From Candidatus Poribacteria bacterium (GTDB lineage Bacteria; Abyssobacteria; SURF-5): DNA of 44,863 nucleotides. A program made the translations under genes and the position numbers. The notes beneath the pieces are model-generated. The model had not been told where the DNA came from. It did no database searches and saw only the letters and a program-made list of their open reading frames with translations. The stretch's first letter is position 1. Each line of letters begins with the position of its first letter. Below are positions 1 through 26,946 of the stretch, one piece after another. The DNA lies in NCBI GenBank assembly GCA_016215705.1, contig JACRIR010000047.1, positions 1 through 44,863 of the forward strand, read 5' to 3'.

Positions 1-1788
1 AACGTGCACGATGACACCAATAGACCCTTCCTGCGCGACGATATCGATGTGCTATGCGCCAGGTGTCACACCGAGAGGCAGTTTGTGAACGGGGTGGAGC
101 AGGCTGTCCAGGGCGACTGGGGTTCAGCCTACTACGGCACGGGCAACCCGGGATCTCACCCCATGGGAACCGACGTTTACAATGACAGAGACACTCCCGA
201 AGATTCTCCTGTAAACCTGACTGCGGCAGGCGTGTTCACTTACTCATATGGCGCGACAGGGGCCTACAATCTGGGTGGTCACCTGACTGACGGAGGCACG
301 ACTCCCGGATCGGGCAGCGGCGTCACCTGTGTAACCTGTCATGCGGTCCACGGCGTGCAACCTGATTCAGATCCTCCCGCCGGGGGAACACCACCCGTAC
401 CCAATCTGTTGACAATCGCGCAGCCGACTGCGGGTGGCGCTTATGGCGGAAGCGTGTACGACGGCAATGGGGACCCGCGTAATGCGCTATGTGAGGGTTG
501 CCATAATGAGGGCACTGCAACCACGATTGATCCGGCCACGGGCCTTACATACAGCGGCTCGTATAATCCGAACCCCGGCGCGCAGGGCTATACGCATCCA
601 TGCGATGACCTCGGCGCTTCAGGTTCGGCCGGTGTAGCCGCTTTCCCCACAGATTGGCCCGAGGGTTCTTCGCCGGGCGCAAATGTTGATCCGGGTCCTA
701 TTTGCGAAACCTGTCATACTCCGCATCCAAACCATAATGAGCCGTATCGTCCCACCATATTGAGCGCTAGCGGCTCTCCTATTCTCAGGGCGACGGATGT
801 CTGCGGACAATGTCATGGCGGCGGAGCCGGCAGTCATCATCCCGCAGGAGTCTCCATGGGCTCCCTGTCCGATTCGGCCATCGAAAATGGCGATGGCATT
901 CTTAACTGCGGCGATTGTCACGGCGGGGCGCAGCAGAGCGCGCATAATTGGCAGCAACCAGGCTCGTTCAACCTGGACCCCGACTGGGAACCCAACACGA
1001 CCGGCGGAACGAATTACTCGGACAACGGTCGGACCTATGAGGAGACCACCAACAAGCGCTTTGTGCCCGGTTCATCCAAAGAGTGCGCGGATTGTCACCT
1101 TTCGGCAAGCCCCAATCCTGCTCCTTATGCCCATCATGCGACCGGCAGTGAAACCGAGTACGGAGAATATCAGGATACGGGCACAGCGAGTCATTACCTC
1201 GGCGACACCAATGCAGGCGCTCTCAACTACGCCAACGGGAATTGTCCCGACGGGACCGCTTTCAACGCCACGACAATGGATTGGCCTGGTGGTGGATGGT
1301 CGCGCTTCGACGCCAACGGCGTAAACCGGATAGTCTGCGAATCGTGCCACGACGTCCAGAGTTCAAAAAACGTTCCCGGAACGGCTTTGCTCCTTCACCG
1401 GTACGTCGAAGGCGACACCGATTTCACCAGTACGGGCTATTCGTATGCCTCGGAGCTTTGCGAGGGCTGCCACGGACAGAATCCGTCCGGGAAAACGCAT
1501 CCATTGACGGGGGATATCGTTGATAGCACGGGATTGCCTTTGGATTCCATCAATAACAATCCTCCGGCGGCCAACCCTCCGAACGGAAACGCCACGTATC
1601 CCGGCGGCACGTCGAGGGATTCGATGAATTGCGACAGTTGTCATCAGCCCCACGACGCCGATACCAACGGCGGCACATACATCCTCGAGGATAATGTGAC
1701 CGGCACTGCCACAGGTAACACCCGTGGCGCGAGTATCCCGGATTTGAGATACAACACTTTTTGCAAGGAATGCCACACAGACTACTAG
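1..1788 (+). CDS. Multiheme c-type cytochrome, at least 11 hemes (5'-partial)
   Basis: The reading frame is open from the first base, so the start, signal peptide and possibly more hemes lie outside the window. The visible 595 residues contain 11 CXXCH heme c attachment motifs (CARCH, CVTCH, CEGCH, CETCH, CGQCH, CGDCH, CADCH, CESCH, CEGCH, CDSCH, CKECH), the last only three residues from the C-terminus. Several motifs are followed by a further His (for example CETCHTPH, CDSCHQPH), as in doubled-CXXCH domains with bis-His ligation. The spacers are Gly/Asn/Asp/Pro/Thr rich and acidic, typical of secreted or surface cytochromes. It lies upstream of a 37-residue membrane microprotein and the rest of the electron-transfer island. 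The multiheme assignment is certain from sequence; an extracellular terminal-reductase role is inferred from context. Confidence 0.95.
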   Translation, partial: NVHDDTNRPFLRDDIDVLCARCHTERQFVNGVEQAVQGDWGSAYYGTGNPGSHPMGTDVYNDRDTPEDSPVNLTAAGVFTYSYGATGAYNLGGHLTDGGTTPGSGSGVTCVTCHAVHGVQPDSDPPAGGTPPVPNLLTIAQPTAGGAYGGSVYDGNGDPRNALCEGCHNEGTATTIDPATGLTYSGSYNPNPGAQGYTHPCDDLGASGSAGVAAFPTDWPEGSSPGANVDPGPICETCHTPHPNHNEPYRPTILSASGSPILRATDVCGQCHGGGAGSHHPAGVSMGSLSDSAIENGDGILNCGDCHGGAQQSAHNWQQPGSFNLDPDWEPNTTGGTNYSDNGRTYEETTNKRFVPGSSKECADCHLSASPNPAPYAHHATGSETEYGEYQDTGTASHYLGDTNAGALNYANGNCPDGTAFNATTMDWPGGGWSRFDANGVNRIVCESCHDVQSSKNVPGTALLLHRYVEGDTDFTSTGYSYASELCEGCHGQNPSGKTHPLTGDIVDSTGLPLDSINNNPPAANPPNGNATYPGGTSRDSMNCDSCHQPHDADTNGGTYILEDNVTGTATGNTRGASIPDLRYNTFCKECHTDY

Positions 1789-1915
1789 GAGCGCTGTCGA
1801 AACGAGTGTCTCCTTACGGGCTGCAAGAACCATTGGGGGAGGTGAAAGCCTTCGCGAGGCGGTCTCGCAATTGGACGAATCGGCATAGGCTTCCTCCAAT
1901 ACGAGGGCAAATCTC

Positions 1916-2029
1916 ATGCGGTCAAGAACTGTCGTGATTTTGAGCGCGGCTGGTTTCGTTGCGCTTGTGGTTTTTGGATTGTACCGCCAGGAGTTTGGCG
2001 AAGTTCTGCTCAACGCGACTTTACTCTGA
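1916..2029 (+). CDS. Small single-TM membrane protein (37 aa), unrecognised family
   Basis: ATG at 1916 opens a 37-codon frame that ends in TGA at 2027-2029. The product starts with MRSR, has one hydrophobic helix at about residues 6-22, and then a short amphipathic tail (YRQEFGEV) ending in TLL. A GAGGG stretch about 10 nt upstream could serve as ribosome binding site. It fills the 411-nt gap between the 11-heme cytochrome and the NapH-like gene, on the same strand, which is where an accessory microprotein would be expected. I do not recognise the family. A helix with an N-in positive charge and a short tail fits an inner-membrane partner or assembly factor, but this is inference from shape and location only. 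The rest of the gap (1789-1915, 2030-2199) shows no convincing gene. Confidence 0.5.
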   Translation: MRSRTVVILSAAGFVALVVFGLYRQEFGEVLLNATLL

Positions 2030-2199
2030 CTTTCCTGCATCGGGATAGGGTAGGGTACCCTTGAAAATGGCGGCGGTCAACTATGAAGGGGATTGAGGGG
2101 TGGGCGATTATTGGCGCTCATGCGAGCGTACTCTGCGAACTAACTTTTTACAGGGATACTCATGCCGGATCAGGCTTTGGCCGGCGGTAAGTTTCTAAC

Positions 2200-3000
2200 G
2201 TGAAAAGGAGAGTCTTTCAGATCGTCAGCGTAGCGCTGGTGAACTCCTATTTGACCGCCCCGTTCACAAAAGGGCTCTGCTTTCCAGTACTCAACTGTTA
2301 TGCGTGTCCTTTGGCAGCCGTCGCCTGTCCGATAGGGAGTCTTCAGCACTTCTCGGCGATTCATGTATTCCCCTTCTACGTAGTGGGAGTGCTCGGAATG
2401 GTCGGCATCGTTGTCGGCCGGATGACGTGCGGATGGCTGTGCCCTTTTGGGTTTTTGCAGGACCTGTTTTTCAAAATGCATTCGGTCAAATGCAGGCTGC
2501 CACAACGGCTGAACTACTTAAAGTATATCCTGCTCGTTGCACTGGTTATTGCAGTGCCGTACTTTACCGGCGAGCCCTGGTTCAGCAAGCTTTGTCCAGC
2601 CGGTGTCCTGGAGGCCGGCATTCCGCTTGCCATGCTCGACGAACAGGTCAGGAGGCAGCTTGGAGGAATGTTTTGGTTCAAGATAGGGATATTGTCGGGA
2701 TTCCTTGTCTCCTTCACGTTCATAAAGCGGCCGTTTTGCAGAGCCATATGTCCGCTCGGGGCCATATTCTCTCCTTTCAACGCCCACAGCGCTTACAGAC
2801 TGGAATTCGACGAGAAGGAGTGCATTCACTGTGACAAATGCTACAGGAAATGTCCCGTCGACATCAAGGTATATGAGAGTCCGAATTCCGCTGACTGCAT
2901 CCGGTGCCTGGAATGCACCGACTGTGCGTGCATAAGAATAACGAATATTCTCCGGGCTTCGGAAGCGCGACAGAAATCGCAAACAGGGGAGGCAAAGTGA
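2200..3000 (+). CDS. NapH/NosR/YccM-like polytopic membrane protein with 4Fe-4S clusters
   Basis: This 266-residue protein begins at GTG 2200. It has several transmembrane helices carrying paired cysteine motifs typical of the NapH/NosR/YccM family: CGWLCPFG at about residue 77 and CRAICPLGA at about 181. An extra Cys-rich N-terminal segment (CFPVLNCYACP, about 27-37) and a CPAG at about 132 are also present. The C-terminal soluble part holds one canonical 4Fe-4S motif (CIHCDKCYRKCP, about 207-218) and a second, compressed one (CIRCLECTDCAC). Family members pass electrons between membrane quinol or flavin and periplasmic partners. Here it likely connects the membrane to periplasmic redox proteins, possibly the TlpA protein encoded next with a 1-nt stop/start overlap (TGATG). 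That overlap indicates translational coupling. The exact electron donor and acceptor are unknown. Confidence 0.88.
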   Translation: MKRRVFQIVSVALVNSYLTAPFTKGLCFPVLNCYACPLAAVACPIGSLQHFSAIHVFPFYVVGVLGMVGIVVGRMTCGWLCPFGFLQDLFFKMHSVKCRLPQRLNYLKYILLVALVIAVPYFTGEPWFSKLCPAGVLEAGIPLAMLDEQVRRQLGGMFWFKIGILSGFLVSFTFIKRPFCRAICPLGAIFSPFNAHSAYRLEFDEKECIHCDKCYRKCPVDIKVYESPNSADCIRCLECTDCACIRITNILRASEARQKSQTGEAK

Positions 3001-3611
3001 TGCGGAAGTTGCAGTTGAACGCTGCTACCCTCTTGATACTCATTCTTGTCCTTGTTCCATCATGTGCGACCAGTGATGACTTGTCCGGGACCGGCAATAT
3101 GAAGGCGGCGACTCCGCCCGCGCAGGCGCAAACGCTTCGAAAGCTTGTGGTCGGCGACTTGGCGCCCCCCTTCGCAATCAACACGCTCGACGGAAGATCA
3201 TACGACCTCAAGAAGGAGACAGAAGGCAAAGTCGTGTCTATCGTGTTTTGGTCCATTTTCTGCGCGCCTTGCCGGAGGTCCATTCCGATTATGAATGACA
3301 TCTATAAAGAGCTGCGAGACAGACAATTCGAGCTTGTGGCAGTGAATATGGACGGGAAGAAAATGATCGAGGGAGTTAAAGCGTATGTGGCGGAAGAAGG
3401 CATTGTGTTTCCGGTTCTGATGGACGAGCTTGTAGACGATTCGCTCAAGGTCGCAGACCCTTACGGAGTGCAAGGAACTCCAATGCTCTTTCTCATAGAT
3501 AAGCGTGGTTACATCACATTTTCCAAGGCGGGTGACCTGGAACGCGACGAGCTGCGGGCGATGATTCTGTCGGAAATGGGGGGGTCTGCTTCCGTCAGCG
3601 ACAAGAAATAA
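3000..3611 (+). CDS. TlpA/ResA-type thioredoxin lipoprotein
   Basis: The 203-residue product has a lipoprotein-type signal peptide (hydrophobic stretch ending in LVPSC, lipid Cys near residue 22) and a TlpA-like thioredoxin fold. The redox motif is FWSIFCAPC (Cys88/Cys91), with a cis-proline GTP segment near residue 158 followed by a FLIDKRG strand. TlpA/ResA/CcmG proteins reduce disulfides outside the cytoplasm, classically the CXXCH cysteines of apocytochromes before heme attachment. That job fits a cluster encoding at least 85 such motifs. The ATG at 3000 is preceded by an AGGGGAGG Shine-Dalgarno and overlaps the stop of the NapH-like gene by one base; an in-frame GTG at 2997 is a minor alternative. 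The NapH-like neighbour may supply its electrons (inference). Confidence 0.9.
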   Translation: MRKLQLNAATLLILILVLVPSCATSDDLSGTGNMKAATPPAQAQTLRKLVVGDLAPPFAINTLDGRSYDLKKETEGKVVSIVFWSIFCAPCRRSIPIMNDIYKELRDRQFELVAVNMDGKKMIEGVKAYVAEEGIVFPVLMDELVDDSLKVADPYGVQGTPMLFLIDKRGYITFSKAGDLERDELRAMILSEMGGSASVSDKK

Positions 3612-3681
3612 CGTTGGGGGGCGCTTGATTCAGCCCGCAATTCTGGGCCGGAGTTGGAGATGCGCTGAAGTGCGTTGCCGT

Positions 3682-4677
3682 ATGGGCGGGAAAGCCGCCG
3701 GAATATTATTGCTTATGGCTGTCTCTTTTGCTTGCGGGTGCGCCGCCACGCCGCCGGTGACGGAGCAGGTATGGCCGCCGTCGCCTGCGCGGGCGCGGAT
3801 ACGTTACGTTCGCAGCATCTACGACGATAGCGAAGTCAAAGGGGCCGCTTTCAAGCGGTGGGTATCGCGATCTTCACCGATGCAGATAAAGAAACCTTAT
3901 GGTGTTTTCTCCGATGATAGGGGAAGAGTCTACGTCGCGGATACCGCATGGGGATTGATTCTCGTCCTTGACTACACACAGGGCAGGTCCTTCTTTATTG
4001 GAGGCGAAAATGGAAACGGCCGGCTTGCCAAGCCGGTGAACGTAATCGCCGATGGAAGCGGCAATGTCTACGTTGTAGATGCGCTTCAAAAGCGACTGGT
4101 GATCTACGACGCAAATGGGAAATTCCTCAACGCCATCGGCAGACAAGGCGAGTTCGAGAGGCCGACTGGAATCGCGCTGGACGAGGAAAAGAGCAGAATC
4201 TATGTGAGCGACACGCTTCGGCATGTCGTTAGAGCCTATGATGCAGGGGGAAAGTTTCAATTCGAGTTTCGCGGCGACTCCGACCAGAATGTCACATTTC
4301 ATGATCCGACAAACATCTGGGTGGACAAGGCGGGAAGCGTCTATGTGACGGACTCGATGAATTTCCGGATTCTTGTTTTCGACGCAGACGGAAGGTACAT
4401 CAAGAAGATAGGCAGAATCGGCGTTCTTCCCGGCATGTTTGCCCGGCCTCGAGGCGTGGCGGTTGATAGTGAGGGGCATATCTACGTGGTGGACGCCATG
4501 TTTCACAATGTCCAGATATTCGACCAGGAGGGAAGGCTTCTGCTCGGTCTTGGCAAGTTCGGTTCCGGCGCCGGTGAGTTTTGGCTTCCCGCCGGTATAT
4601 GTATAGATCGAGAAGACTTCATCTACGTTTCCGATTCTCTCAACCATCGGATACAGGTGTTTCAGTATTTGCATTGA
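3682..4677 (+). CDS. NHL-repeat (six-bladed beta-propeller) lipoprotein 1
   Basis: About 331 residues. The chosen ATG gives a clean lipoprotein signal peptide (MGGKAAGILLL...ACGC). An in-frame TTG at 3625 has a better Shine-Dalgarno (GGGGGG) but would put 19 odd residues before the signal. After the lipid Cys comes a conserved block with VWPP and IRYVRSI, shared with the propellers at 5529 and 10863. NHL repeats follow, each with a variant of GVAVDSEGHIYVVDA and a following VQIFD strand; about six can be counted. NHL propellers act as docking or scaffold modules. Pairing with the tetraheme cytochrome 66 nt downstream suggests a role in cytochrome export, surface anchoring or filament assembly. 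That role is inference. Confidence 0.88.
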   Translation: MGGKAAGILLLMAVSFACGCAATPPVTEQVWPPSPARARIRYVRSIYDDSEVKGAAFKRWVSRSSPMQIKKPYGVFSDDRGRVYVADTAWGLILVLDYTQGRSFFIGGENGNGRLAKPVNVIADGSGNVYVVDALQKRLVIYDANGKFLNAIGRQGEFERPTGIALDEEKSRIYVSDTLRHVVRAYDAGGKFQFEFRGDSDQNVTFHDPTNIWVDKAGSVYVTDSMNFRILVFDADGRYIKKIGRIGVLPGMFARPRGVAVDSEGHIYVVDAMFHNVQIFDQEGRLLLGLGKFGSGAGEFWLPAGICIDREDFIYVSDSLNHRIQVFQYLH

Positions 4678-4743
4678 GTGATCCCGGCAAGTTGTCCGGT
4701 CTCTCCGTCCCCGGGGACGGCGGACAACAAGGGAGAGAGCGAT

Positions 4744-5502
4744 ATGAAGACCAGAATAACATCTCTGACCATAAGCATCCTGGCTCTTGCTATGCTGCCG
4801 TGCGCGGCGACTGCGGCAGGCGTAGCCGGAACGGCGCACGATCTCAATTACACGAGCAACCGCGTATACTTCAGCGGCTCGACGTGCGATACCTGCGCGT
4901 ATTGCCACACGCCGCACGGCGCCCTCACGTTTAATGAGTATGTTGGCCCTCTTTGGAATCAGCAAAACACGGAAACAAGCGTTGAAAACAACGGTGTCCT
5001 TTACAGCAGCGACACCATCGATATGGTCACACAGGGGTTCAACCCGGACACTTTCTACGGAATCGCCGGGCCGAGCAACGCCTGTCTTTCGTGTCACGAT
5101 GGTGTGCAGGCAATGGATACTCTTGCCAACGGAATGAGCCCGGCGGGGGCTAGTGGGCACGGAACTGATACCGATGAGAGTATTATCGATTCAGGCGGTT
5201 CAGACGTTGGCGCCGGCCCGGCAGGACCGGCATCCGCCACGGGAGTCGTGAACCTCAGCGACGACCACCCTGTGGCGATCATATATGACACCGGAAGGGA
5301 CACCGCGTTCAACGCCAATCCGATGGATGCCGGCGGAAGGAGTCTCTTGCATCCACCCGACAACACCGTGGAATGCACCTCATGCCACAACCCGCACGAG
5401 GCGGATATCAACGGCGATGGACTTAACGTTGGGACGGACAGACCGTTCCTGCGGGTAGCAAACACTAACAGCAACCTATGTTCCAAGTGCCACAAGAAAT
5501 AG
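4744..5502 (+). CDS. OmcE-like tetraheme c-type cytochrome 1
   Basis: The 252-residue protein begins at ATG 4744 behind a GGGAGAGAG ribosome site and has a Sec signal peptide ending near AATAAG. It has four CXXCH motifs (CAYCH, CLSCH, CTSCH, CSKCH). The non-heme histidines shared with its paralogs are in AHDLN, CHTPH, DDHP and CHNPH, so conserved distal His and hemes match in number, as expected for bis-His ligation. The layout HDL / CxxCHTPH / PLWN / CLSCHDG / DDHP / CxSCHxPH / C-terminal CXXCH is what I associate with OmcE-type tetraheme cytochromes that polymerise into extracellular filaments. Filament formation here is inference. An extra Cys pair (CDTC) just before the first motif is distinctive. 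It is flanked by NHL lipoprotein genes on both sides. Confidence 0.9.
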   Translation: MKTRITSLTISILALAMLPCAATAAGVAGTAHDLNYTSNRVYFSGSTCDTCAYCHTPHGALTFNEYVGPLWNQQNTETSVENNGVLYSSDTIDMVTQGFNPDTFYGIAGPSNACLSCHDGVQAMDTLANGMSPAGASGHGTDTDESIIDSGGSDVGAGPAGPASATGVVNLSDDHPVAIIYDTGRDTAFNANPMDAGGRSLLHPPDNTVECTSCHNPHEADINGDGLNVGTDRPFLRVANTNSNLCSKCHKK

Positions 5503-5528
5503 CTCCGCACCTATTGAAGAGACGCGGA

Positions 5529-6629
5529 ATGTCCGGCAGAAAAATGCGAAAGTCGGCAATCATCTTCGTGTTGGCGGCGACGATAGGCGGATGCGCCGCG
5601 CGGCCGAGGCAGGTTGACCTCGTGTGGCCGCCTGCGCCGGAGATACCGAGGATCAGGTACGTGCGCAGTATCTCGACGCTGCCGGACCTGGAGCGTTCCG
5701 GGTGGACACATTTCAAGGACGTCATGTTCGGAGCCGAAGCGTCCGAGACGCTGATCAAACCCTACGGGGTGGCCGTTGATTCACGCGGCACGTTGTATGT
5801 TTCAGATACCGGTTTCGGACTCGTTTTCGTCTTCAACCTCGCAACAAAAGGCGGCGCGGAGAAACTCTCTCTCATCGGGATGAAAAAGCCCGGACAGCTT
5901 GCCAGACCCATAGGATTGGCTGTTGACGCGCATGATAATCTCTATGTGAGCGATGCACTGGGAAAAAGGGTGGTGGTCTACGGGCCGGACCACGAGTTCC
6001 TTGCAGCGATAGGCCAGGAAGGCGGAATGGAGCGTCCGGCAGGGATCGCGGTCGACAACGCGCGACAACGTCTGTACGTGGTAGATGTCTCCACGCACAG
6101 CGTGAAAGTCTACGCTCTTGACGGTCGGTTCTTGTTCTCGTTCGGCGCACGCGGCATGGAGGACGGCCAATTCAATTTTCCTACGAATGTGGCTGTCGAT
6201 AAGTCCGGCAATATCTTTGTCGTTGACAGTATGAACAACAGGGTCGCCATTTTCGACAGCGAGGGACGATTTGTCAGAAAGTTCGGCGAAGCCGGTGCGG
6301 TTTCGGGCTCCTTCGCTCGGCCGAAGGGTATTGCGCTGGACAGCGATGGACACGTCTACGTCGTGGACGCAGCTTTCGACAACGTCCAGATCTTTTCACA
6401 TGACGGGCAGATTCTCTTGAGTTTCGGCGAATTCGGCTCGGGGCCAGGAGAGTTTCAGTTGCCGGCCGGCATTTGTATCGATAAGCAGGATGCGGTATTC
6501 GTGACTGATCAATACAACAAGCGGATTCAGGTTTTCCAGTATATCAAAGAAACGGCCGGGGACTCAGCGCCGCCTGTTCCCAACGAATCTCATGAGCGGC
6601 AAGCGGAGGTGGGACAAGGTGCGAAGTAA
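5529..6629 (+). CDS. NHL-repeat lipoprotein 2
   Basis: The product is about 366 residues from ATG 5529 (an internal ATG at 5544 is equally possible). The signal peptide ends at a lipobox (IGGC near residue 24), followed by the same VWPPAPEIPRIRYVRS block as NHL protein 1, then about six NHL repeats such as GIALDSDGHVYVVDA and GIAVDNARQRLYVVD. The C-terminal repeat ends RIQVFQY, as in the paralogs at 3682 and 10863, followed by an extra polar tail. It starts 26 nt after the tetraheme gene and overlaps the next cytochrome by 11 nt, so it is translated as part of the same transcript. It is a paralog of the preceding propeller, and the pair NHL plus tetraheme cytochrome is repeated as a cassette. 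Periplasmic-face or surface attachment through lipid is inferred. Confidence 0.88.
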   Translation: MSGRKMRKSAIIFVLAATIGGCAARPRQVDLVWPPAPEIPRIRYVRSISTLPDLERSGWTHFKDVMFGAEASETLIKPYGVAVDSRGTLYVSDTGFGLVFVFNLATKGGAEKLSLIGMKKPGQLARPIGLAVDAHDNLYVSDALGKRVVVYGPDHEFLAAIGQEGGMERPAGIAVDNARQRLYVVDVSTHSVKVYALDGRFLFSFGARGMEDGQFNFPTNVAVDKSGNIFVVDSMNNRVAIFDSEGRFVRKFGEAGAVSGSFARPKGIALDSDGHVYVVDAAFDNVQIFSHDGQILLSFGEFGSGPGEFQLPAGICIDKQDAVFVTDQYNKRIQVFQYIKETAGDSAPPVPNESHERQAEVGQGAK

Positions 6630-7368
6630 TCATCATGCGGCTACATCCATATGCCTGTTTATGGCGGCTCTGCTCTTTTCGCACACCGCCTTTGCGGGAA
6701 CTGTCTTCGGCTCAAAACACGATCTTTCAACAACCGGGGGAATCACCAATAAATCAACCAATGAGACCCAGGTGTGCATTTTCTGTCACACGCCGCACAG
6801 CGCGCGACCATCCGTTCCACTGTGGAATCGGGTCATCTCGTCCTCGAGCATGTCGTACACGTTGTATAGCAGCCCTACACTGAATGCCTCTCCCGCATTT
6901 CAGGATACAGGCAGCCCCGGCAGTTCCGAGTTGCTGGGCGGTCCTTCCCGACTGTGCCTGAGCTGTCACGACGGCACAATCAGTGTGAGCAACATTATCA
7001 ATAGATTCCCCGACGATCAGGACCCGCTCATGGGCTCCGGCACGGAACTCGACCTCGACGGCAGCCTGCGAGAGAGCAGACTATCCAACCTGGGCGGCGC
7101 CACCCTCGGCGGCTCGGTGGCCGATCTCAGCAATGATCATCCGATCTCTTTTGAATACTCCAGTCAATTGGCCTCCGCCGACGGCGAAATCTATGACCCG
7201 GCCGACCCGGCTCATTCTGAAATCCAGCAATTGCTCAAGAACTATTCGGGGGGGAGAGGAAATTTCGAATGTTCTTCGTGCCATGATCCGCACAATCCGG
7301 ACTTTAAGCCTTTCTTGGTGAAGAACAACAATATGAGTGCGCTTTGCCTCACCTGTCATATCAAATGA
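6619..7368 (+). CDS. OmcE-like tetraheme c-type cytochrome 2
   Basis: I place the start at GTG 6619 because GGAGGT lies 8 nt upstream and the resulting 249-residue product begins with a compact signal peptide ending HTAFA. An ATG at 6592 would add nine polar residues. There are four CXXCH motifs (CIFCH, CLSCH, CSSCH, CLTCH), with CLTCH at the extreme C-terminus. The paralog-shared histidines are KHDLS, CHTPH, NDHP and CHDPH. Shared landmarks with the cytochromes at 4744, 10020 and 11984 include PLWN, TLYSSPTLN, RLCLSCHDGTI and SALCLTCH. The gene overlaps the upstream propeller gene by 11 nt. It likely encodes a secreted, possibly polymerising tetraheme electron carrier; homopolymer formation would need structural support. 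Confidence 0.92.
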   Translation: MRSNHHAATSICLFMAALLFSHTAFAGTVFGSKHDLSTTGGITNKSTNETQVCIFCHTPHSARPSVPLWNRVISSSSMSYTLYSSPTLNASPAFQDTGSPGSSELLGGPSRLCLSCHDGTISVSNIINRFPDDQDPLMGSGTELDLDGSLRESRLSNLGGATLGGSVADLSNDHPISFEYSSQLASADGEIYDPADPAHSEIQQLLKNYSGGRGNFECSSCHDPHNPDFKPFLVKNNNMSALCLTCHIK

Positions 7369-9967: not shown

Positions 9968-10019
9968 AGGCAGGGGAATCAGTCAATGTCCTCAGATCAT
10001 CGAGGCGGTGGGGTCTTTT

Positions 10020-17615: not shown

Positions 17616-17653
17616 AACACTCCGGCAAGAAAGGATTAGGGGAGAACAAACCG

Positions 17654-19552: not shown

Positions 19553-21494
19553 GATGCCAAAGAACAGATTTAAATCCTCATTGCCGATTCTCATATTGGC
19601 ATGCCTCCTGACGCTCGCATCAGCGTCGGCGTCAGCCATTGACGAGGAAGATTGTCTGCAGTGTCATAAATACAGGGGACTTCGCGCGCAAGGTCAGGCA
19701 GCATCGTTGCGCGACTTCCACGTTGATGAAAACTCATTTAACCAATCGGCTCATGGGACAGTCACCTGCCGCGGTTGCCATATTGATATCCGCCGGACAC
19801 CTCACGAACAGGAGGGAAGCAAAGTTAACTGCGGCATAGCATGTCACTTGTCCGCCGACCTTCGCGGCAAGCAGTCGTCCCACATGAAGCTTTACAATCA
19901 GTATCTTGAAACAGCGCACGGGGAATTAGTCGGAAAGGAGTTGGATTGCCTTTCTTGTCACGTTCGGAACGAAACAAAGGGCTACGCCAGGCGGCATCAC
20001 AAGGAGGTGGAGAGTCTCTGTGAAAAATGTCATCTCAAAGAGCAAGCTTCCTCCGGCGGAATTGCTTCCGGCGGGCCGAAGGTGACAGGCGATGTTTACC
20101 ACCGGCTTTCAGTTCTCCGAAGCCGACCGGACCTGCCCGGTTGTGTTGACTGCCATCCTGTTCACTCCATTTATCCGAAAGAGAATCCCATATCGTCGGT
20201 GAACACGGAGAACTTGCCGAAGACATGTGGCGGAGCCCATAGCCCTCTTCAAAGCTGTCATGTGGCTGCGAGCGCTCGATTCATCGGCACGGAGATTCAT
20301 GACCGCAATCTCGCAGCGAGAAATGGCCGGGCCACCCGAGAGAAGACTCTGTGGCTCGGGATGATGCTGTTGCTGGCGCCACTGGCTCTCCATATGCTTT
20401 TCGATTCTTTCCGATCAGGGCGACTGCGTCATGACGGGACAGAAGATCAAGGAGACTCTCGAGTTTTTGTCAGGATGACGGTGCACCAGAGAGCGCTTCA
20501 TATGTTGCTGATTGTGTTTTTTGCCTTTTCGGCGGCAGGCGGGCTGTCATTGTGGCTGTGCGACCGCAAGCCGGCTGCCGGATTGATCTCCTTTGTGGGC
20601 GGATTCAAGCAAATGAGCAACCTCCATCTCGGAGGGGCTGGAGCTCTTGCCGCGCTCATAGTCTACCACGTCGCTTCCCTTGTCTTTCTTGCTGTAAAAA
20701 GAGATTGGGTCATCAGCGACCTGACACTTCTGCCGCGTCGGAAAGACGTGACGGACCTCCTCCAAAACGCATGGTTCCTGCTCGGAAGAAGTCCGGAGCG
20801 GCCCCGATACGGCAAGTTCAGCTTTGTGCAGAAATTCGATTATCTTGCCGCGCTGCTGGGACTCAGCTTCATGATTGTCACCGGCCTGGCAATCGGATTC
20901 CCTGAGCGTTCGATCTGCGCTGTTTTGCCGGCCCGATGGTTGGGCGATTTGCGAATTGTCCATGTGGCCCTTGGATATGGATTGATCTTTATTTTTCTTG
21001 TCTGGCACGTGGGCAACAATCTGTTCAGCCCGGCTACGTTTCTCCGCAACTGGTCGTGGGTCAACGGGAAGATATCTGAGGACATGATGCGACAGGAACA
21101 CACGCAATACTATGAGGATATGCTCCTCGCGGAGCAGGAAGAGAAACTGAGACGGGAGAGGGCCGTCGAAGAGCGCTCCATGGAAGAGGTCATAAAGAAA
21201 CAGGCCAGGGAACTGGAGGAATATCTGGAAGCGGGGAACCAATACGCAAAGCAGGCGGATTATGCAAAGGCCGTCGAACAATACGAAAAAGCGCTCGGGT
21301 TACTTCCCAATTTCCCTCAAGCCCAATACAATCTCGCGACGGTTTGCCACAAATCAGGGAACATCAAAAGGGCGATCGTTGAATACCGGAAATTCATCGA
21401 GATCGATCCGTTCAATACGGTCGCCGATAAGGTCAGAGCCCTCCTGTCGCAACTGGAGGACTCGCCGGATAGGGGATCTGCCGATGCTCGGTAG
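19542..21494 (+). CDS. CbcL-like multiheme c / diheme b quinol oxidoreductase with C-terminal TPR
   Basis: 650 residues from ATG 19542. After a signal peptide (ends SASA|ID) come five CXXCH motifs (CLQCH, CRGCH, CLSCH, CEKCH, CVDCH), one CX3CH (CGIACH) and one CX9CH candidate (C-GGAHSPLQS-CH). From about residue 265 a cytochrome b561/FdnI-type module with about four TM helices carries heme-b candidate histidines in VHQRALHM, NLHLGG, IVYHVAS, RIVHVAL and LVWHVGN. The closest described architecture is Geobacter CbcL, an inner-membrane quinol oxidoreductase for extracellular respiration with N-terminal c hemes and an FdnI-like b domain. Unlike it, this protein adds a charged coiled coil (about 520-560) and two TPR repeats (QYAKQADYAKAVEQYEKAL and the next). 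It is the likely entry point of electrons from quinol into this island. Confidence 0.87.
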   Translation: MSSKMPKNRFKSSLPILILACLLTLASASASAIDEEDCLQCHKYRGLRAQGQAASLRDFHVDENSFNQSAHGTVTCRGCHIDIRRTPHEQEGSKVNCGIACHLSADLRGKQSSHMKLYNQYLETAHGELVGKELDCLSCHVRNETKGYARRHHKEVESLCEKCHLKEQASSGGIASGGPKVTGDVYHRLSVLRSRPDLPGCVDCHPVHSIYPKENPISSVNTENLPKTCGGAHSPLQSCHVAASARFIGTEIHDRNLAARNGRATREKTLWLGMMLLLAPLALHMLFDSFRSGRLRHDGTEDQGDSRVFVRMTVHQRALHMLLIVFFAFSAAGGLSLWLCDRKPAAGLISFVGGFKQMSNLHLGGAGALAALIVYHVASLVFLAVKRDWVISDLTLLPRRKDVTDLLQNAWFLLGRSPERPRYGKFSFVQKFDYLAALLGLSFMIVTGLAIGFPERSICAVLPARWLGDLRIVHVALGYGLIFIFLVWHVGNNLFSPATFLRNWSWVNGKISEDMMRQEHTQYYEDMLLAEQEEKLRRERAVEERSMEEVIKKQARELEEYLEAGNQYAKQADYAKAVEQYEKALGLLPNFPQAQYNLATVCHKSGNIKRAIVEYRKFIEIDPFNTVADKVRALLSQLEDSPDRGSADAR

Positions 21495-22026
21495 TCACAC
21501 CCGAAGCCGATCCCTCCTGCTTGCGGCCATCTTTATCGGAGTATGGTTTTTCTTCGGGTGGCGCATCCGTCCTCTCGAATTCTCTCCGGAAATCTTGTCC
21601 GCAAAACAGACACCTGAACAGGAGTTCTACCATTCTGCGTCAGAGTCAAACTCTCCCCTTATCCAGGATGTCCCGGCGTGCTCCCCTTGCCACGGCAAAT
21701 ACCCTCACAAAAAGAACCCGTCCAATCGCGCCTTTCTTAACCTGCATCTTGGAAGACTCGATTGCGCCGTTTGTCATCTTGGTGTGGCCGAAGCGCGGAG
21801 GATCGTTCTCGGCAGTCAAGCAGCCGCGGCATATTCCACCGTTTCAGGGGGGAAGCACGAGATTCAGTTTAGAAAGCCATCGTGCAGAGATTGTCATTCG
21901 CCCGAAGGCGTCGCGCGATTCAATGAATCCGGTTATGATCGCGCAAATACGGCAAGATTGAACGAGCTCGACGAACACGTCAGTTCCGCCGTCGAGGGCA
22001 ACGTGTTCTACTACCCGAGATTCTAG
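21484..22026 (+). CDS. Membrane-anchored triheme c-type cytochrome
   Basis: 180 residues from ATG 21484, overlapping the CbcL-like gene by 11 nt. One N-terminal hydrophobic helix (LLLAAIFIGVWFFFGW) without an obvious cleavage site suggests a signal anchor. The periplasmic part carries three CXXCH motifs (CSPCH, CAVCH, CRDCH) and several free histidines (FYHSAS, KYPHKK, LNLHLG, GKHEIQF) as candidate distal ligands. It resembles small NapC/NrfH-side or MacA-side relay cytochromes only in general layout; I do not assign it to a named family. Given tight coupling with the b/c fusion, it probably accepts electrons from it or forms a subunit of the same complex. Confidence 0.85.
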   Translation: MLGSHTRSRSLLLAAIFIGVWFFFGWRIRPLEFSPEILSAKQTPEQEFYHSASESNSPLIQDVPACSPCHGKYPHKKNPSNRAFLNLHLGRLDCAVCHLGVAEARRIVLGSQAAAAYSTVSGGKHEIQFRKPSCRDCHSPEGVARFNESGYDRANTARLNELDEHVSSAVEGNVFYYPRF

Positions 22027-22034
22027 GAGAACAT

Positions 22035-22952
22035 ATGAGGAGAAGATTTTTCTTTCTCGTCTTACTCGCTGCGCTGAGCCTCGGAAGTCAGTGCCTGGCC
22101 TTCGAGGTAATTCGGACCGCGGCCGTCCGGGAAATGCGCGGGTCCGCTTCTTACGCAATGAATCAACCAAGTGATGTCGCAGTCGGACAGCGAGGGGACA
22201 TTTATGTCCTCGACGGGGTCAACGACAGAATTCTCGCTTTTGATCCGACGGGCGGCATCCGGTTCATCCTCTCTCATCTGGGGCGTGAGTACGGCTCATT
22301 CAAATCACCGCTAGGCTTGAATACCGATTCACAGGGCAACCTCCTCGTCGCCGATTCGGCAAATCATCGCATAGTCGTTTTCGACAAGGACGGCAGGCTC
22401 AAGCTTGTATACAACTTGTCGGCCGGAAGTGTCGCGTCGGATCCGACGGATGTTTTCTCCGATCTGGAATACCACTATATCGCGGACAACGACAACCATC
22501 GCATCCTCGTTTACTCTGCAAGTGGAAAATTCGTAAACACATTCGGGCAGGAAGGAGAAGGCGCCGGAGAATTTAAATATCCATTCAAGATCGAAATGGA
22601 CCAACAAAGAAGACTCTACGTCGTCGATGTGCTCAATGGGCGGGTTCAGATATTGACAACAGCGGGTAACTATCTTGGACAGATAGGACGCTTCGGGATA
22701 TCGCCCGGCGCCATGTTCCGGCCTAACGGGATTGCTTTCGACAGGAAGGGACGCATCCTGGTCAGCGATTCATATCTCGGCGTCGTTCAAGTCTTCGAGC
22801 GTGCAGGAAAATTCCTCGGGGTGATCGGAGATCAGGAGGGCAAGGCGCTGCGTTTCAAGAGTCCCACCGGCCTTTCTGTTGATGCTGAGAATCACCTCTA
22901 CGTCGTCGAGATGCCAACCGGAAAAGTGATCGTTCGGGATATCCTGGACTAA
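22035..22952 (+). CDS. NHL-repeat beta-propeller protein 5 (secreted)
   Basis: 305 residues from ATG 22035, eight nt after the triheme stop, with AGGAGA as ribosome site. The signal peptide (MRRRFFFLVLLAALSLGS then CLAFE) has a Cys but no clear lipobox, so cleavage after LA by signal peptidase I is also possible. Repeats include DVAVGQRGDIYVLDG, GLNTDSQGNLLVADS, GIAFDRKGRILVSDS and GLSVDAENHLYVVEM, with ILAFD/IVVFDKDG strands. This is the only propeller in the island placed next to inner-membrane components rather than next to OmcE-like genes. It may organise the CbcL-like/triheme complex (inference). Confidence 0.87.
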   Translation: MRRRFFFLVLLAALSLGSQCLAFEVIRTAAVREMRGSASYAMNQPSDVAVGQRGDIYVLDGVNDRILAFDPTGGIRFILSHLGREYGSFKSPLGLNTDSQGNLLVADSANHRIVVFDKDGRLKLVYNLSAGSVASDPTDVFSDLEYHYIADNDNHRILVYSASGKFVNTFGQEGEGAGEFKYPFKIEMDQQRRLYVVDVLNGRVQILTTAGNYLGQIGRFGISPGAMFRPNGIAFDRKGRILVSDSYLGVVQVFERAGKFLGVIGDQEGKALRFKSPTGLSVDAENHLYVVEMPTGKVIVRDILD

Positions 22953-22964
22953 GGAGGAAGGCGG

Positions 22965-23204
22965 ATGAAGCAGAAACGATGGGAATACGGGCAGGTATTC
23001 GTCAGACGTCCGGAGATTTTTGGAGGCCTGCCCAAGACCGGATTGAACCTCGAGAAAATCAATCGGGCAGGCGATGAAGGATGGGAACTCGTAAATACGA
23101 TCCCATTCACTGTCGCCAATGGAGAGGTCACCGGCGCTTTCTTCATATTCAAGAGAGAGACACTTGAGGGGCAGAAAGACCTCGGCGAGAGTTGCGGTCC
23201 CTGA
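22965..23204 (+). CDS. DUF4177-like small protein
   Basis: 79 residues from ATG 22965, 12 nt after the propeller stop, with AAGGAGGAAGG just upstream. The pattern KRWEYGQVFV, then INRAGDEGWELVNTIPF, then FFIFKRE matches the small DUF4177-type fold (strand, helix with GxEGWELV, two strands, FKR). No signal peptide or TM segment is seen, so the product should be cytoplasmic. The biochemical function of DUF4177 proteins is not known to me. Its position just upstream of the 30-heme cytochrome gene on the same strand suggests co-transcription, with a 94-nt gap containing an interspersed repeat. Confidence 0.7.
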   Translation: MKQKRWEYGQVFVRRPEIFGGLPKTGLNLEKINRAGDEGWELVNTIPFTVANGEVTGAFFIFKRETLEGQKDLGESCGP

Positions 23205-23234
23205 GATGAATCACAATCGTCCGAAACATCCTCT

Positions 23235-23272
23235 GTTCGTCATTCTGAGCGAAGTGAAGAGTCTCCTTAGCG
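23235..23272 (+). repeat. Interspersed repeat of the VILSE type
   Basis: The stretch includes GTCATTCTGAGCGAAGTG followed by AAGAGTCTCC. Copies of this type, whose translation reads VILSEVKSLL or VILSEAKDLL, are scattered through many environmental bacterial genomes and often produce false N-terminal extensions. Here it lies in frame just upstream of the 30-heme cytochrome, which is why I reject the upstream ATG at 23206 and use ATG 23299. Confidence 0.6.
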
Positions 23273-23298
23273 CGAATCCATCTTGTCGGAAAAGACGC

Positions 23299-26200
23299 AT
23301 GAGCCGATGGCGACGTTGCTCTCACGCGGCTGCATTGCTTTCTCTGGTCATTCTCTTGAACTTACTCGGAACCAGCGTTTACGCCGCCGGGGAGGAAATG
23401 GCAAGACGATGCGTTATTTGCCATATAACGCGGAGCCCTGCGCTTGAGGCGGGAGAACAAACACTGTATGTGCCGTCGGGACTCGAGCGTGAAGAGGGCG
23501 CCGACAGCATGTGCTATAGCTGTCATAATGGCTCCGTCTTGGATTCCAGGGAGAAAGTGTGGACGGGTCACCAGCATCCCACCGGGATGACGCCCGGCCC
23601 GCGCGTCCGAATCCCGGAGGATTTTCCTCTCACAAAGAAGAATCAGGTTTTCTGCGGGACGTGCCACTCACCCCATGCGCCTGCCTCTAGGATGGACGGA
23701 CGAACTGTCTCAAACCTCAGGGCGACGGATAGGACGAAGGATTTCTGCCTTGAATGCCATACGGCCATGAGAGAAGGAGCCCATTTCACAGGAAAGATGA
23801 GCAGATCGGTTCCGGCAACGATCAATTCTTCCGGTGGAGGCGCCGGAACGGACAAGAAGAACCCGACGTGTCGCACGTGCCACCTCTCGCACGGCTCTCG
23901 TGAAAAGGAGTTGCTCGTTCAGTCGAAAGAAAACCTCTGCGAAGATTGTCATGGCAATAATCCCAGCCGGCCGGGACGCGGCCCCGGCACGGGAAGCCAC
24001 CCTGTTCGGACTAAAGCGCCCGAAAAACTTCTGCGCGAGACGTGGCCCGGCGGAAAGCAGATTGTTCTGGGAAGAAACGCTGAGATCATTTGCCTTACAT
24101 GTCATTCCATCCACGATGCCGAAGGCGATCATGCCCAGTTGGCTGTCAAGAACAACGCCGGCGAAATCTGCCTCCCCTGTCACGCCGGATACCGGGGGAC
24201 CGGCTCAAAAAAACAAAATAACGGCAACCACCCATCTGTCGAGCAAAAAGAATCAGCCAAAGCCGCCAAAAACGGTTGTAACCTGTGCCACCGGGCGCAT
24301 AACGGCGCGGGCACGCGCCCGGCGCCACAAGGGACATCCAGCCTCCTTTCCGCTCCCGTGAAAAACTCGGAACTGTGCTCGCCATGCCACACGGACTTCG
24401 TCGCCGGCGGAGTCGCCAATGCGCGAACAATGGGCACACATCCCGTCGGCGTTGCGAGTCAATCGAGCGGGGCCGCCCTTTCTCAAACTGAAACCGTGCC
24501 GGATGGAGAGAGCTTGACCTGCATAACCTGCCATCGCTCTCATGGAACGGAACCGGGCTGGAGCAGCCTTCGAGACCATCGGTCTTCTTCTTGTCTGCCC
24601 TGTCATCCGGCTCAAAACTCCTTGGACAACCAACGCAGCGCGCCGGGAAACCACCCGGTTTTTGTAAAGCCGGTCACAGCTTCGATCCCTGCCGAGTTCA
24701 TTTCTTCCGGGGGAGAGGCGGGCGAATATGGAGAATTGGTTTGCAGAACGTGCCACGGAGTGCACAATGCGGTGAAAGGGACGCCGCTTCTTCTGGAACC
24801 CTCAACTCAAAAAGACTTCTGCGACAAATGCCACGCCGCCGAAAAACAAGTCCTGGGAACCAAGCACGACATCAGCGCCTCCTCTCCCGAATCGGCCGAC
24901 AAGGATTCTCGATTGGCTTCTGAAACCGGTCCGTGCGGCGCCTGTCATAGCGCCCATGGTTGGGCCAGAGACACGGACGGCGGCGATGTGATAAGCGGCA
25001 TATGCCTAAGTTGTCATGGCGCCGGAGGCTCAACGAAAAACGGCCCGGGAGCGCACGGTCATCCTATCGACGTCGGCATGTCGGATTCCGGGAATCCTGC
25101 TAATCTGCCTTTGTTCACTGCCGGGGGCAAGAATATCGCAACGGGGTACGTGACCTGCTCGACTTGCCACGACGTTCATCGAGAGAAACTGCCGCGTGTG
25201 ATCCGCCGAAGCAGTGGATCGTCAGAATTCTTTGAGGGCGCTTTCTTGAGAATGCCCTATCAGGGCTCGAACGCGCTTTGCATGAACTGTCACGCGGAGG
25301 AGGGCGCGATAATAGGAACAGACCACGACCTCTATCAGAGCAAAACAAAAGGCCGTGGCGAAAATGCTCCGTCGGAACACGAGAAAGGTCCATGCGCAAC
25401 ATGCCATTCGCCCCATAAGGGTGTTGGCCCCAAAATGTGGACGAGAGAAACACGGAAAGGGAACGACCTGATTTCTGATCTCTGTTCAAGCTGTCATTCA
25501 AAAGAGAATCCGGGTGCGCGAGAATTGCCGCCACATTTACATCCCGCAAATGCGTCCCTGCCGGCTGACAAAACATTGAAACTGCCCCTCTTCGACGCGC
25601 AGGGCAAAAGGACCCCATTGGGCCAAATAACATGTTCGACATGCCATTCCGTTCATGGGTCGAAACCGCTGGGTGGCGCGTCAACCGTTTCCGGTCCGGC
25701 CTCTGAGAAATTTCTCAGACGGGTAGCATTCACGGACGCAACAACATCTGTTGGGGCCGGCGACGCCCTTTGCGTATATTGCCATGAGGAACAAAGGAAT
25801 GTTTTGGGATCCTCTCACGACAAACGCACCGGAACATGCGGTGGATGCCACTCAGCTCACTCTGACAATCAATCCCTCCTTTGGGCGCTTCCTCTTCCAC
25901 AGGGAGATGATGATCTTATTTCAGCCCTGTGCCGAAGCTGCCACGTCTCAATAGTGGCGGGAAAGGGGCAACAACGGAGCGTGAACGGCCATTCCCTCGG
26001 CGTCCGATTTGCCGGGGAAGATTCGGTTGCGCTTCCCCTGTATAACAAACAGGGCAAGAAGGAGGCGAAGGGTACGCTTACATGCGCAACGTGTCATGAC
26101 GTGCATGGGGGAAGCGCCTCGGCGGATGAGCGAGCGACTACAAAAGCCGGTGAATTCCTGCGTGTCGGGGGCCGGCCCGAAAAGCTTTGCGCACAGTGCC

Positions 26201-26946
26201 ACCCGAACAAAATAACCATCAGCGGAACAATTCATGACTTGACGCTTGCTTCTGCCAAAGCTGAAAGCGGGCCGCCTCAAATGACCGCGGCCCGAGGTGT
26301 GTGCGGCATTTGCCACGCTCCTCACTCTGTTAAAGAGCAAAAAGTTCTGGTGACTTCTGACGAAGTCGCCGGCAGCGAAGACCCTCACGAACGTAGTTGT
26401 CTGAGTTGCCACAAAGAGACTGGCCCGGCAGCCAACAAGATTCCCGAATATCTCTCGCATCCTATGACGCGAATACCCGTCGCCAAAGTCTCGCCAATCC
26501 CGGAAGAAAACGACAAGGAGAAATCCTTTGGCAGCGTTTTGAAGGAGATAATCATTGGACCCGAGAACGAAGTGAAGAAGCGAAACGAACCGATTCGGTA
26601 TGCGGAAGCGCCTATGAAATTCGTCGACAGGCTCAGTTTAAGAAGGGACGCGCCGCCTCTCCTGCCTCTGTACGACGATAAGGGCAAGCCTGGAAACTCG
26701 GGAATTCTTACGTGTCCCAGTTGCCATGATATCCATAACAGCGGAGCGGAAATGAGGCTTGCGATTTTCAAGGAAGGGCCGGAGCGAAGCAAACTGGAGC
26801 ACAGCCTTTTGAGAACAACCTTTGTGGATGAGGCAACACGAATATGCGGCGATTGTCACGGACTGCAAAGACAGTCGCTCTTCTGGGATTTTCATACGGC
26901 GCCACGTGGCTCTCACGAGGGCAAACTGCCGGAAAAACACCCTTGA
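23299..26946 (+). CDS. Giant 30-heme c-type cytochrome
   Basis: About 1215 residues from ATG 23299, which gives a direct signal peptide (MSRWRRCSHAAALLSLVILL, cleavage near VYAAG). An in-frame ATG at 23206 would add 31 residues encoded by an interspersed repeat. I count 30 CXXCH motifs, from CVICH near the mature N-terminus to CGDCH near the C-terminus, about one per 40 residues. The second half is built from repeated modules of LPL[FY]..xGK, TCxTCHDVH, FLR, LCxxCH, HD and PCxxCHSPH followed by DLIS.LCxSCH. Linkers are Lys/Glu/Gly/Ser rich. No lipobox, TM tail or S-layer motif is seen, so it is periplasmic or secreted. It probably acts as a long molecular wire or charge reservoir between membranes (inference). 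Confidence 0.93.
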   Translation: MSRWRRCSHAAALLSLVILLNLLGTSVYAAGEEMARRCVICHITRSPALEAGEQTLYVPSGLEREEGADSMCYSCHNGSVLDSREKVWTGHQHPTGMTPGPRVRIPEDFPLTKKNQVFCGTCHSPHAPASRMDGRTVSNLRATDRTKDFCLECHTAMREGAHFTGKMSRSVPATINSSGGGAGTDKKNPTCRTCHLSHGSREKELLVQSKENLCEDCHGNNPSRPGRGPGTGSHPVRTKAPEKLLRETWPGGKQIVLGRNAEIICLTCHSIHDAEGDHAQLAVKNNAGEICLPCHAGYRGTGSKKQNNGNHPSVEQKESAKAAKNGCNLCHRAHNGAGTRPAPQGTSSLLSAPVKNSELCSPCHTDFVAGGVANARTMGTHPVGVASQSSGAALSQTETVPDGESLTCITCHRSHGTEPGWSSLRDHRSSSCLPCHPAQNSLDNQRSAPGNHPVFVKPVTASIPAEFISSGGEAGEYGELVCRTCHGVHNAVKGTPLLLEPSTQKDFCDKCHAAEKQVLGTKHDISASSPESADKDSRLASETGPCGACHSAHGWARDTDGGDVISGICLSCHGAGGSTKNGPGAHGHPIDVGMSDSGNPANLPLFTAGGKNIATGYVTCSTCHDVHREKLPRVIRRSSGSSEFFEGAFLRMPYQGSNALCMNCHAEEGAIIGTDHDLYQSKTKGRGENAPSEHEKGPCATCHSPHKGVGPKMWTRETRKGNDLISDLCSSCHSKENPGARELPPHLHPANASLPADKTLKLPLFDAQGKRTPLGQITCSTCHSVHGSKPLGGASTVSGPASEKFLRRVAFTDATTSVGAGDALCVYCHEEQRNVLGSSHDKRTGTCGGCHSAHSDNQSLLWALPLPQGDDDLISALCRSCHVSIVAGKGQQRSVNGHSLGVRFAGEDSVALPLYNKQGKKEAKGTLTCATCHDVHGGSASADERATTKAGEFLRVGGRPEKLCAQCHPNKITISGTIHDLTLASAKAESGPPQMTAARGVCGICHAPHSVKEQKVLVTSDEVAGSEDPHERSCLSCHKETGPAANKIPEYLSHPMTRIPVAKVSPIPEENDKEKSFGSVLKEIIIGPENEVKKRNEPIRYAEAPMKFVDRLSLRRDAPPLLPLYDDKGKPGNSGILTCPSCHDIHNSGAEMRLAIFKEGPERSKLEHSLLRTTFVDEATRICGDCHGLQRQSLFWDFHTAPRGSHEGKLPEKHP

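Follow-up and report, generated by a model that had tools for sequence, protein, structure and literature searches.

To our knowledge, the electron conduits described so far have been treated as passive wires. Geobacter provides two points of comparison for the genes considered here: the OmcE tetraheme nanowire of Geobacter sulfurreducens, the solved structure of which is PDB entry 7tfs, and CbcL, a b/c-type quinol oxidoreductase that carries nine heme c motifs in its N-terminal part. Whole gene clusters offer two more. The Uet (undecaheme electron transfer) complex, which occurs in Tenderiales and Gallionella, is encoded by a cluster that combines 11-heme and tetraheme cytochromes, a beta-barrel, NHL proteins, the peptidyl-prolyl isomerase UetB and three periplasmic trihemes, UetDEG (PMC10734462). 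In Deferribacter, a 19-gene cytochrome cluster (DEFDS_0741-60; FHQ18_02900-02990) is described as encoding cytochromes with 28 and 10 hemes along with a cytochrome b561 (PMC6896113, PMC13186404). The locus analysed here brings together two neighbouring gene sets that, by their predicted products, are devoted to electron export, one like known protein nanowires, the other a little-noticed operon that carries TonB.

The window, that is the whole stretch of 44,863 nucleotides that was analysed, is an entire contig (C215), and all the genes discussed below lie on its forward strand. Positions 1-26946 hold 85 CXXCH motifs, distributed over nine open reading frames (11, 4, 4, 5, 11, 12, 5, 3 and 30), and positions 26947-44863 hold none. 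Shuffling the residues within the same nine frames left a mean of 0.46 motifs and a maximum of 3, against the real 85, and a first-order Markov shuffle of the DNA gave 1.6 over six frames, against 86 observed. The total is a minimum because the first cytochrome, c11a (1-1788, 11 CXXCH), has lost its 5' end at the contig edge; its homologue in genome G290 (40%, 13 CXXCH) lies near homologues of TlpA. There follow a NapH-like membrane polyferredoxin (Fer4_5; 2200-3000), missing from the gene list of the initial annotation, and a TlpA-like thioredoxin-fold protein, probably a lipoprotein (2904-3611). A second TlpA-like thioredoxin-fold lipoprotein is found between the two gene sets (15031-16044), the signals of both being read from the sequence. 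Pfam recognises in this island NHL propellers, AhpC/TSA domains in the TlpA-like proteins, ExbB, ExbD and a cytochrome b561 domain. Much of the initial annotation is borne out: its motif counts are exact (shuffled controls give about 0.5), and the five beta-propeller proteins, the two thiol reductases (both TlpA-like lipoproteins with AhpC/TSA domains) and the b/c quinol oxidoreductase (a multiheme c domain with a Pfam cytochrome b561 domain) that it listed are all present, NHL2 and NHL3 being recognised through homology to the remaining NHL proteins.

Module A, the upstream gene set (3625-14979), is made of NHL, tetraheme, barrel, NHL and undecaheme genes, and we can understand its predicted products as an OmcE/Uet-type outer-membrane and filament cassette. 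Four beta-propeller lipoproteins punctuate it: NHL1 (3625-4677; Pfam), with a 44% homologue in the same position in genome G265, NHL2 (5478-6629), which has a lipobox and syntenic homologues, NHL3 (10863-11981), also with syntenic homologues, and NHL4 (14035-14979; Pfam NHL). The cytochromes c4a (4678-5502) and c4b (6592-7368) are tetraheme proteins of the OmcE family, matching 7tfs with E 5e-14 over residues 31-274 and 5e-31 over residues 19-258, respectively; c5a (9951-10784; E 2e-21) belongs to the same family with a fifth CXXCH. These three are putative surface-filament subunits. The undecaheme cytochrome c11b (11984-14017) joins an OmcE-like N-terminal domain (7tfs, E 2e-24) to a heptaheme domain; it has homologues in other genomes, and at loci L164, L165 and L168 its two domains are separate genes. 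What the initial annotation had called an outer-membrane barrel (7547-9967) we retain as putative. An excess of alternating hydrophobicity (z 3.4, controls being about 0 or negative), a terminal Phe, which is a feature of outer-membrane proteins, weak homology with the barrel that occupies the equivalent position in G265 and the presence of barrel candidates at the same place in conserved Module A loci elsewhere all speak for it; on the other side, Pfam, NCBIfam and PDB gave no match. Its AlphaFold model (pLDDT 34.8) was discarded as unusable, and as a survey query it retrieved only itself.

Downstream, Module B (16128-26946) comprises eight genes, for a 12-heme cytochrome, ExbB, ExbD, TonB, a CbcL-like protein, a triheme cytochrome, an NHL protein and a 30-heme cytochrome. 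The dodecaheme c12 (16128-17615) has homologues (27-42% in local or global alignment) that directly precede ExbB in the remaining genomes with the TonB operon, wherever upstream DNA is at hand. The ExbB-like proton-channel subunit (17588-18340; PF01618, 98.7 bits) scores 45-55% against its operon homologues versus at most 40% against paralogues of the same genome, and in the ExbB tree the operon clade has weak support (42/0). A scan of contigs by ExbB patterns set on variable stretches returned three unrelated ExbB loci. The ExbD-like subunit (18309-18728; PF02472, 95.5 bits) has its transmembrane Asp in MADIVFLLVTFFM, and the channel Thr and Asp positions, read from the sequence, are kept in ExbB and ExbD. 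The TonB-like protein (18725-19552) consists of an N-terminal transmembrane segment, a linker and a divergent C-terminal domain of TonB/TolA type. It matches no Pfam family at E <= 0.01, TonB_C included, and was called by its position, its N-terminal segment and its predicted fold. The single-sequence AF2 model of the C-terminal domain (pLDDT 79.8) aligns with Helicobacter pylori TonB at Z 6.9, the top 17 rows being all TonB, TolA or FusB domains, and Foldseek gave an E of only 0.04; we have moderate confidence that this domain folds like TonB/TolA. It is probably not the housekeeping TonB, since the only one that Pfam recognises in the genome sits on contig C85, with ExbB and a Plug-domain receptor. 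The CbcL-like b/c protein (19542-21494) carries N-terminal hemes, a cytochrome b561-like membrane domain and a C-terminal TPR. Its hemes are probably more than five, because a CX3CH motif, in addition to five CXXCH, is kept in 14/14 homologues. As a survey query this protein mostly brought back paralogues, but it led to genome G052. The operon ends with a membrane-anchored triheme cytochrome, c3 (21484-22026, from a predicted start at 21484), the exported beta-propeller NHL5 (22035-22952; Pfam), which among the five NHL proteins of the window is the closest to every core NHL homologue tested, and the giant c30 (23119-26946), with 30 CXXCH, the homologues of which carry 18-37.

The order of Module B is found in 14 of the 297 genomes of one large phylum, allowing for loci truncated at contig ends and for small genes that match weakly; these loci are all the matches to the profile of the TonB subfamily, and 14/14 lie in the operon. 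In a third phylum two genomes have it: G153, with the order c12-ExbB-ExbD-TonB-CbcL-c3-NHL-giant cytochrome, and G290, where c12-ExbB-ExbD-TonB is seen up to the contig end. Not counting the window, 16 genomes have it in all, with some loci truncated at contig ends, and the TonB-bearing operon is present in at least three bacterial phyla. In a broad survey with TonB, only the matches of G000, G153 and G290 reached past a linker segment of repeat-like character. The idea of an isolated TonB insertion into this one genome was rejected, the same operon TonB being found in other genomes. In the phylum of G269 the c12 profile, run without a positive control, had no match at 1e-60. The core of the operon (CbcL-like protein, c3, NHL5 and giant cytochrome) is present in 15 of the 16 genomes matched by the c3 profile, and its TonB-free version extends to at least five phyla, probably including the Deferribacter 19-gene cluster: locus L100 holds c10, c6, cytochrome b, c3, NHL and c28, no ExbB-ExbD-TonB was seen at L099-L101, and the corresponding genomes would belong to Deferribacterota.

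In many genomes Module A recurs, its gene order kept, with no TonB operon, and it is absent near all 14 TonB-operon loci of the large phylum, within the up to approximately 10 kb fetched. In G052 and G062, Module A-type genes adjoin the TonB-less core, in rotated order, which makes a functional pairing of the two modules plausible. Conservation of the whole 27 kb as one unit was rejected, as the modules are conserved separately. Where the initial annotation saw a single system, the electron-transfer island stands, but synteny splits it into a TonB operon conserved as a unit and an upstream cassette conserved independently; ExbB-ExbD-TonB is confirmed as an integral part, in the same order in the 14 genomes of the large phylum and the two of the third. 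The claim that no described conduit has this gene set is wrong in part: the upstream half matches OmcE in sequence and Uet in gene content, and a cluster similar to the downstream core is described in Deferribacter; the exact combination with TonB, as an ExbBD-TonB-cytochrome operon, had no description in the open-access papers searched.

The most likely function suggested by these sequences is an export of electrons, linked to menaquinol, through a periplasmic wire of cytochromes that has a proton-motive-force transducer of its own; we infer the path, its direction and its acceptor from the genes. The cytochrome b domain of the CbcL-like protein would oxidise (or reduce) the menaquinone pool, and electrons would pass through its periplasmic hemes to the membrane-anchored c3 and on to the long c12 and c30, which would span the periplasm. 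Driven by ExbB-ExbD through the proton motive force, the TonB-like protein would reach the outer membrane, its most likely role being to dock, open or assemble the outer end of the conduit. We favour, at somewhat better than even odds, a conduit of two adjacent modules in which Module A provides that outer end here, with the barrel and c11b, the OmcE-like head of which could seed or contact a surface filament made of the tetraheme subunits, the NHL lipoproteins perhaps acting as assembly or docking factors. It is a more tentative proposal that the motor exerts work where this quinol-linked wire meets the outer membrane, by opening, docking or building that end, and equally tentative that extracellular respiration would thereby be mechanically coupled to inner-membrane energy, a coupling of ExbBD-TonB to an electron conduit that was undescribed in the papers searched.

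Several observations count against this explanation: the modules are mostly found apart, the ExbB clade and the barrel model have the low values given above, the Pfam scan of the island proteins found neither receptor (TonB_dep_Rec) nor Plug domain, and other phyla keep the core without TonB, which is therefore not essential to the core chemistry. The recurrence of A without B, and of B without A within some 10 kb, would suit two independent conduits that merely happen to be neighbours: a filament cassette of OmcE/Uet type and, distinct from it, a respiratory operon whose chain stops in the periplasm or at a different partner in the outer membrane. We consider this a serious contender, a little short of an even chance, against which stand the common strand and mostly short or overlapping junctions of A and B, the rotated arrangement in G052 and G062, and the fact that B alone has no outer-membrane barrel.

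The motor itself might be doing something else. At least one Plug-domain receptor is encoded in each of the six genomes checked, as expected if the TonB system were a nutrient-uptake passenger energising receptors encoded elsewhere (for iron or heme destined to cytochromes, for example) and owing its place among the cytochromes solely to the iron demand of heme synthesis; yet the operon has no receptor, G000, G153 and G290 also possess a Pfam-type TonB elsewhere, and the subfamily was found only in Module B operons, in the large phylum as in the broad survey, and we hold this to be quite improbable. A Tol-like device for envelope tethering or motility (compare TolQRA, or gliding), which would position the conduit and not power transport, is unlikely too, if less so: the C-terminal fold resembles TolA domain III (Z 5.3-5.8) nearly as well as TonB, but the best Z is to TonB and the island has neither Pal nor motility genes. 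Should the motor act on the conduit, cells would draw on the proton motive force for building, gating or positioning their extracellular wiring, and this would give a testable genetic handle on the export of cytochrome filaments and their connection to the periplasm.

Set against known systems, c4a, c4b and c5a align with OmcE near full length or as two long segments and c11b through its N-terminal domain; c4b and c4a combine near full-length homology with four CXXCH, whereas c5a carries an extra heme motif and c11b has a heptaheme domain joined to its OmcE-like part. The likeness to Uet lies in the gene list, an undecaheme, tetrahemes, a barrel and NHL proteins within one cluster (PMC10734462), and neither a UetB-type isomerase nor the three UetDEG trihemes were found among the island's reading frames. 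As for porin-cytochrome conduits of the MtrCAB/DmsE type, c12 (54.8 bits) and c30 (138.3 bits) both fall below the cut-off of the decaheme MtrA/DmsE family (TIGR03508, 192.2). The CbcL-like protein shares with CbcL the fusion of an N-terminal multiheme c domain to a C-terminal cytochrome b membrane domain, but has five CXXCH and a CX3CH against nine hemes, ends in a TPR and, unlike CbcL, has homologues mostly split into separate genes. TonB-ExbB-ExbD is matched by ExbB and ExbD above Pfam cut-offs and by the N-terminal segment and C-terminal fold of TonB, and differs by the unmatched TonB_C, the receptor-less cluster and the setting in a cytochrome operon. This conduit operon with a TonB-type motor of its own is widely distributed, being present in three phyla or more. 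Finally, the 28-heme, 10-heme and cytochrome b genes of Deferribacter are paralleled at L100, and the cross-phylum core (CbcL-like protein, triheme, NHL and 18-37-heme cytochrome) would place that cluster in a family and provides a clear marker of electron exchange in lineages that are still little known.

The island at 1-26946 consists of 21 open reading frames, all on the forward strand, set in a near-continuous row in which many genes overlap; the junctions longer than 100 bp are a 411-bp gap after the first cytochrome, and then only 178 and 166 bp. The 85 CXXCH motifs of the initial annotation are an exact count, carried by nine of these frames against 0.46 expected from residue shuffles, and a minimum, because the first cytochrome is truncated by the contig edge. 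The same annotation treated the island as a single system. The parts are adjacent in the window, but the synteny search shows two modules, each conserved without the other: Module A (3625-14979), with NHL proteins, cytochromes and a barrel, and Module B (16128-26946), which runs from a 12-heme cytochrome (c12) through ExbB, ExbD, a TonB-like protein, a CbcL-like protein, a membrane-anchored triheme cytochrome (c3) and NHL5 to the 30-heme c30. No Module A was present in the flanks of the 14 TonB operons, fetched to at most 10 kb per side, and the Module A loci examined had no TonB operon beside them. In genomes G052 and G062 a TonB-less core of Module B adjoins an NHL-barrel-undecaheme set, in rotated order. 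As the modules are found apart, yet adjacent here and, with a TonB-less core in place of Module B, in these two genomes, the island is best read, from gene order, as two conserved modules able to combine. Counts of co-occurrence refer to sampled genomes, in which draft assembly has broken some loci, and to profiles that are sensitive but not exhaustive; the window is one whole contig (C215, 44,863 bp) of a genome that is itself a draft (5.47 Mb, 92% complete), with two surveyed relatives in its family and otherwise none closer than the domain. Elsewhere (L111, G290:C4), a homologue (40%) of the truncated first cytochrome adjoins a 15-heme cytochrome and TlpA homologues, a neighbourhood hinting at 1-3611 as a possible additional conserved block.

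Judged from its conserved order, Module B is a TonB-coupled cytochrome operon whose TonB part is conserved rather than incidental; the built-in TonB system noticed at the outset is thus borne out for this module, ExbB-ExbD-TonB being conserved between c12 and the CbcL-like protein. In genome G153, homologues of ExbB (52%), ExbD (47%) and TonB (41%) lie between those of c12 and CbcL, the latter with a TPR-like tail as in the window, while in G290, of the same small phylum, c12-ExbB-ExbD-TonB is followed by the contig end. In the broad survey (386 genomes), once brief hits to a repeat-like part of the linker are set aside, the TonB profile found only the window's genome and these two; in the large phylum of G176 (297 genomes) it found 14 genomes of five families. 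All 14 loci there follow the order c12, ExbB, ExbD, TonB, CbcL-like, c3, NHL5 and giant cytochrome (20-34 CXXCH), within contig and sensitivity limits: L194 begins at TonB, and some small genes fall below threshold in single loci. Operon copies of ExbB are 45-55% identical to the window's, against at most 40% for other ExbBs, same-genome paralogues included; on the ExbB tree, where branch support is weak (42/0), the operon label needs one change (0 of 500 shuffles as low). In the window's ExbB the segments LGFYGTVTGM and ITTAAG, with their Thr residues, are kept, as is the membrane Asp in ExbD; we take these to correspond to those of the E. coli counterparts. A Pfam search of the window's TonB gave no match. 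The predicted fold of its C-terminal 111 residues alone (pLDDT 79.8) retrieved TonB/TolA/FusB C-terminal domains in all of the top 17 VIA-align rows (Z 4.0-6.9), with a Foldseek E of only 0.04. The Pfam-type TonB of the same genome is encoded on contig C85, where a further ExbB and a Plug-domain receptor accompany it. The TonB homologues of L102 and L110 contain beta-rich, repeat-like linker segments, presumably similar to PEGA domains, that are absent from the window's TonB.

The c3 profile matches 16 of 386 genomes, and in 15 of these, the window's included, c3 lies within a core of CbcL-like heme domain, cytochrome b, c3, NHL5 and giant cytochrome (18-37 CXXCH). This core spans at least four separately listed phyla (those of the window's genome G000 and of G052, G153 and G269) and at least one more. 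Of the five NHL proteins in the window, NHL5 is the one closest to every NHL5 homologue tested. The CbcL-like protein (19542-21494) and its 13 homologues each have in the N-terminal domain, besides CXXCH, exactly one CX3CH (14/14), often with a CX4CH; the conserved CX3CH could mark a further heme of non-standard attachment. Giants related to c30, of 2427 and 2526 residues with 37 CXXCH, adjoin a 7-heme CbcL-like protein in L105 and L104 (G091:C40, G230:C12).

Module A appears to be a nanowire-type outer-membrane cassette. Its tetraheme cytochromes c4a and c4b, its pentaheme c5a and residues 57-265 of its undecaheme c11b align to OmcE, the Geobacter filament protein of solved structure (7tfs), with E values of 5e-14, 5e-31, 2e-21 and 2e-24, respectively. 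In a sample of 386 genomes from across the bacteria, 26 have c11b homologues (profile, E <= 1e-25), about 16 of them near full-length, and the neighbouring genes repeat much of the set NHL, tetraheme, barrel-sized protein, NHL, undecaheme; the G265 locus has NHL1 (44%), a tetraheme, NHL2 (43%), a barrel, NHL3 (40%) and a 10-heme c11b homologue. In three genomes (L164, L165, L168) the OmcE-like and heptaheme parts are two adjoining separate genes, so that c11b resembles a heptaheme protein fused to a filament-type head. A putative assignment is that of the barrel, for which the indications are its strand pattern, a terminal Phe and a weak, chained homology to equally placed barrels. The window's genome has a second NHL-cytochrome cluster (L166, G000:C145:62000-81900), encoding 9-, 4-, 6-, 16-, 19- and 26-heme proteins and syntenic with L167 (G002:C54) of a related genome.

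From this architecture, and from what is established for b/c quinol oxidoreductases, OmcE filaments and TonB, we may propose an electron path, of which direction (export or uptake), acceptor and TonB target are likewise conjectural. Quinol would be oxidised at the cytochrome b of the CbcL-like protein, electrons being relayed via its hemes and c3, and the periplasm would be crossed along c12 and c30; in the window, exit would follow through barrel and undecaheme to OmcE-like filaments. The NHL proteins, most of which are lipoproteins, probably serve in assembly or docking, and ExbBD-TonB would most probably perform PMF-driven work on the outer-membrane end.

Downstream of the island, a sigma-70 consensus is perfect (12/12) at 28259-28231 on the reverse strand. 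Genes of a group-4 hydrogenase/complex-I-like membrane complex (35550-39167, reverse strand) are possibly related to energy-converting hydrogenases; the large subunit ends PLCNKSFNLSYCGHDL, and therefore its NiFe-binding cysteines look degenerate. An HTH and PTS EIIA-type protein (39179-39583, reverse strand) ends in ...GGGVAIPH and spans no more than positions 15-63 of the 144 in the profile. The adjoining proton-antiporter subunit likewise seems shortened, at its N-terminus, and a deletion or an assembly error may be the cause.

By gene content, which is the basis of comparison here rather than protein sequence, Module A comes nearest to the Uet complex (PMC10734462), from which it differs in having neither prolyl isomerase nor triheme trio. 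For the TonB version of Module B, no description was found in the open-access literature, as incompletely covered. A Deferribacter cluster of 28- and 10-heme cytochromes with cytochrome b561, which was proposed, unproven, to serve Fe(III) reduction or to be left over from a system that did (PMC6896113, PMC13186404), equals the fetched locus L100 in heme counts and is probably the TonB-less core.
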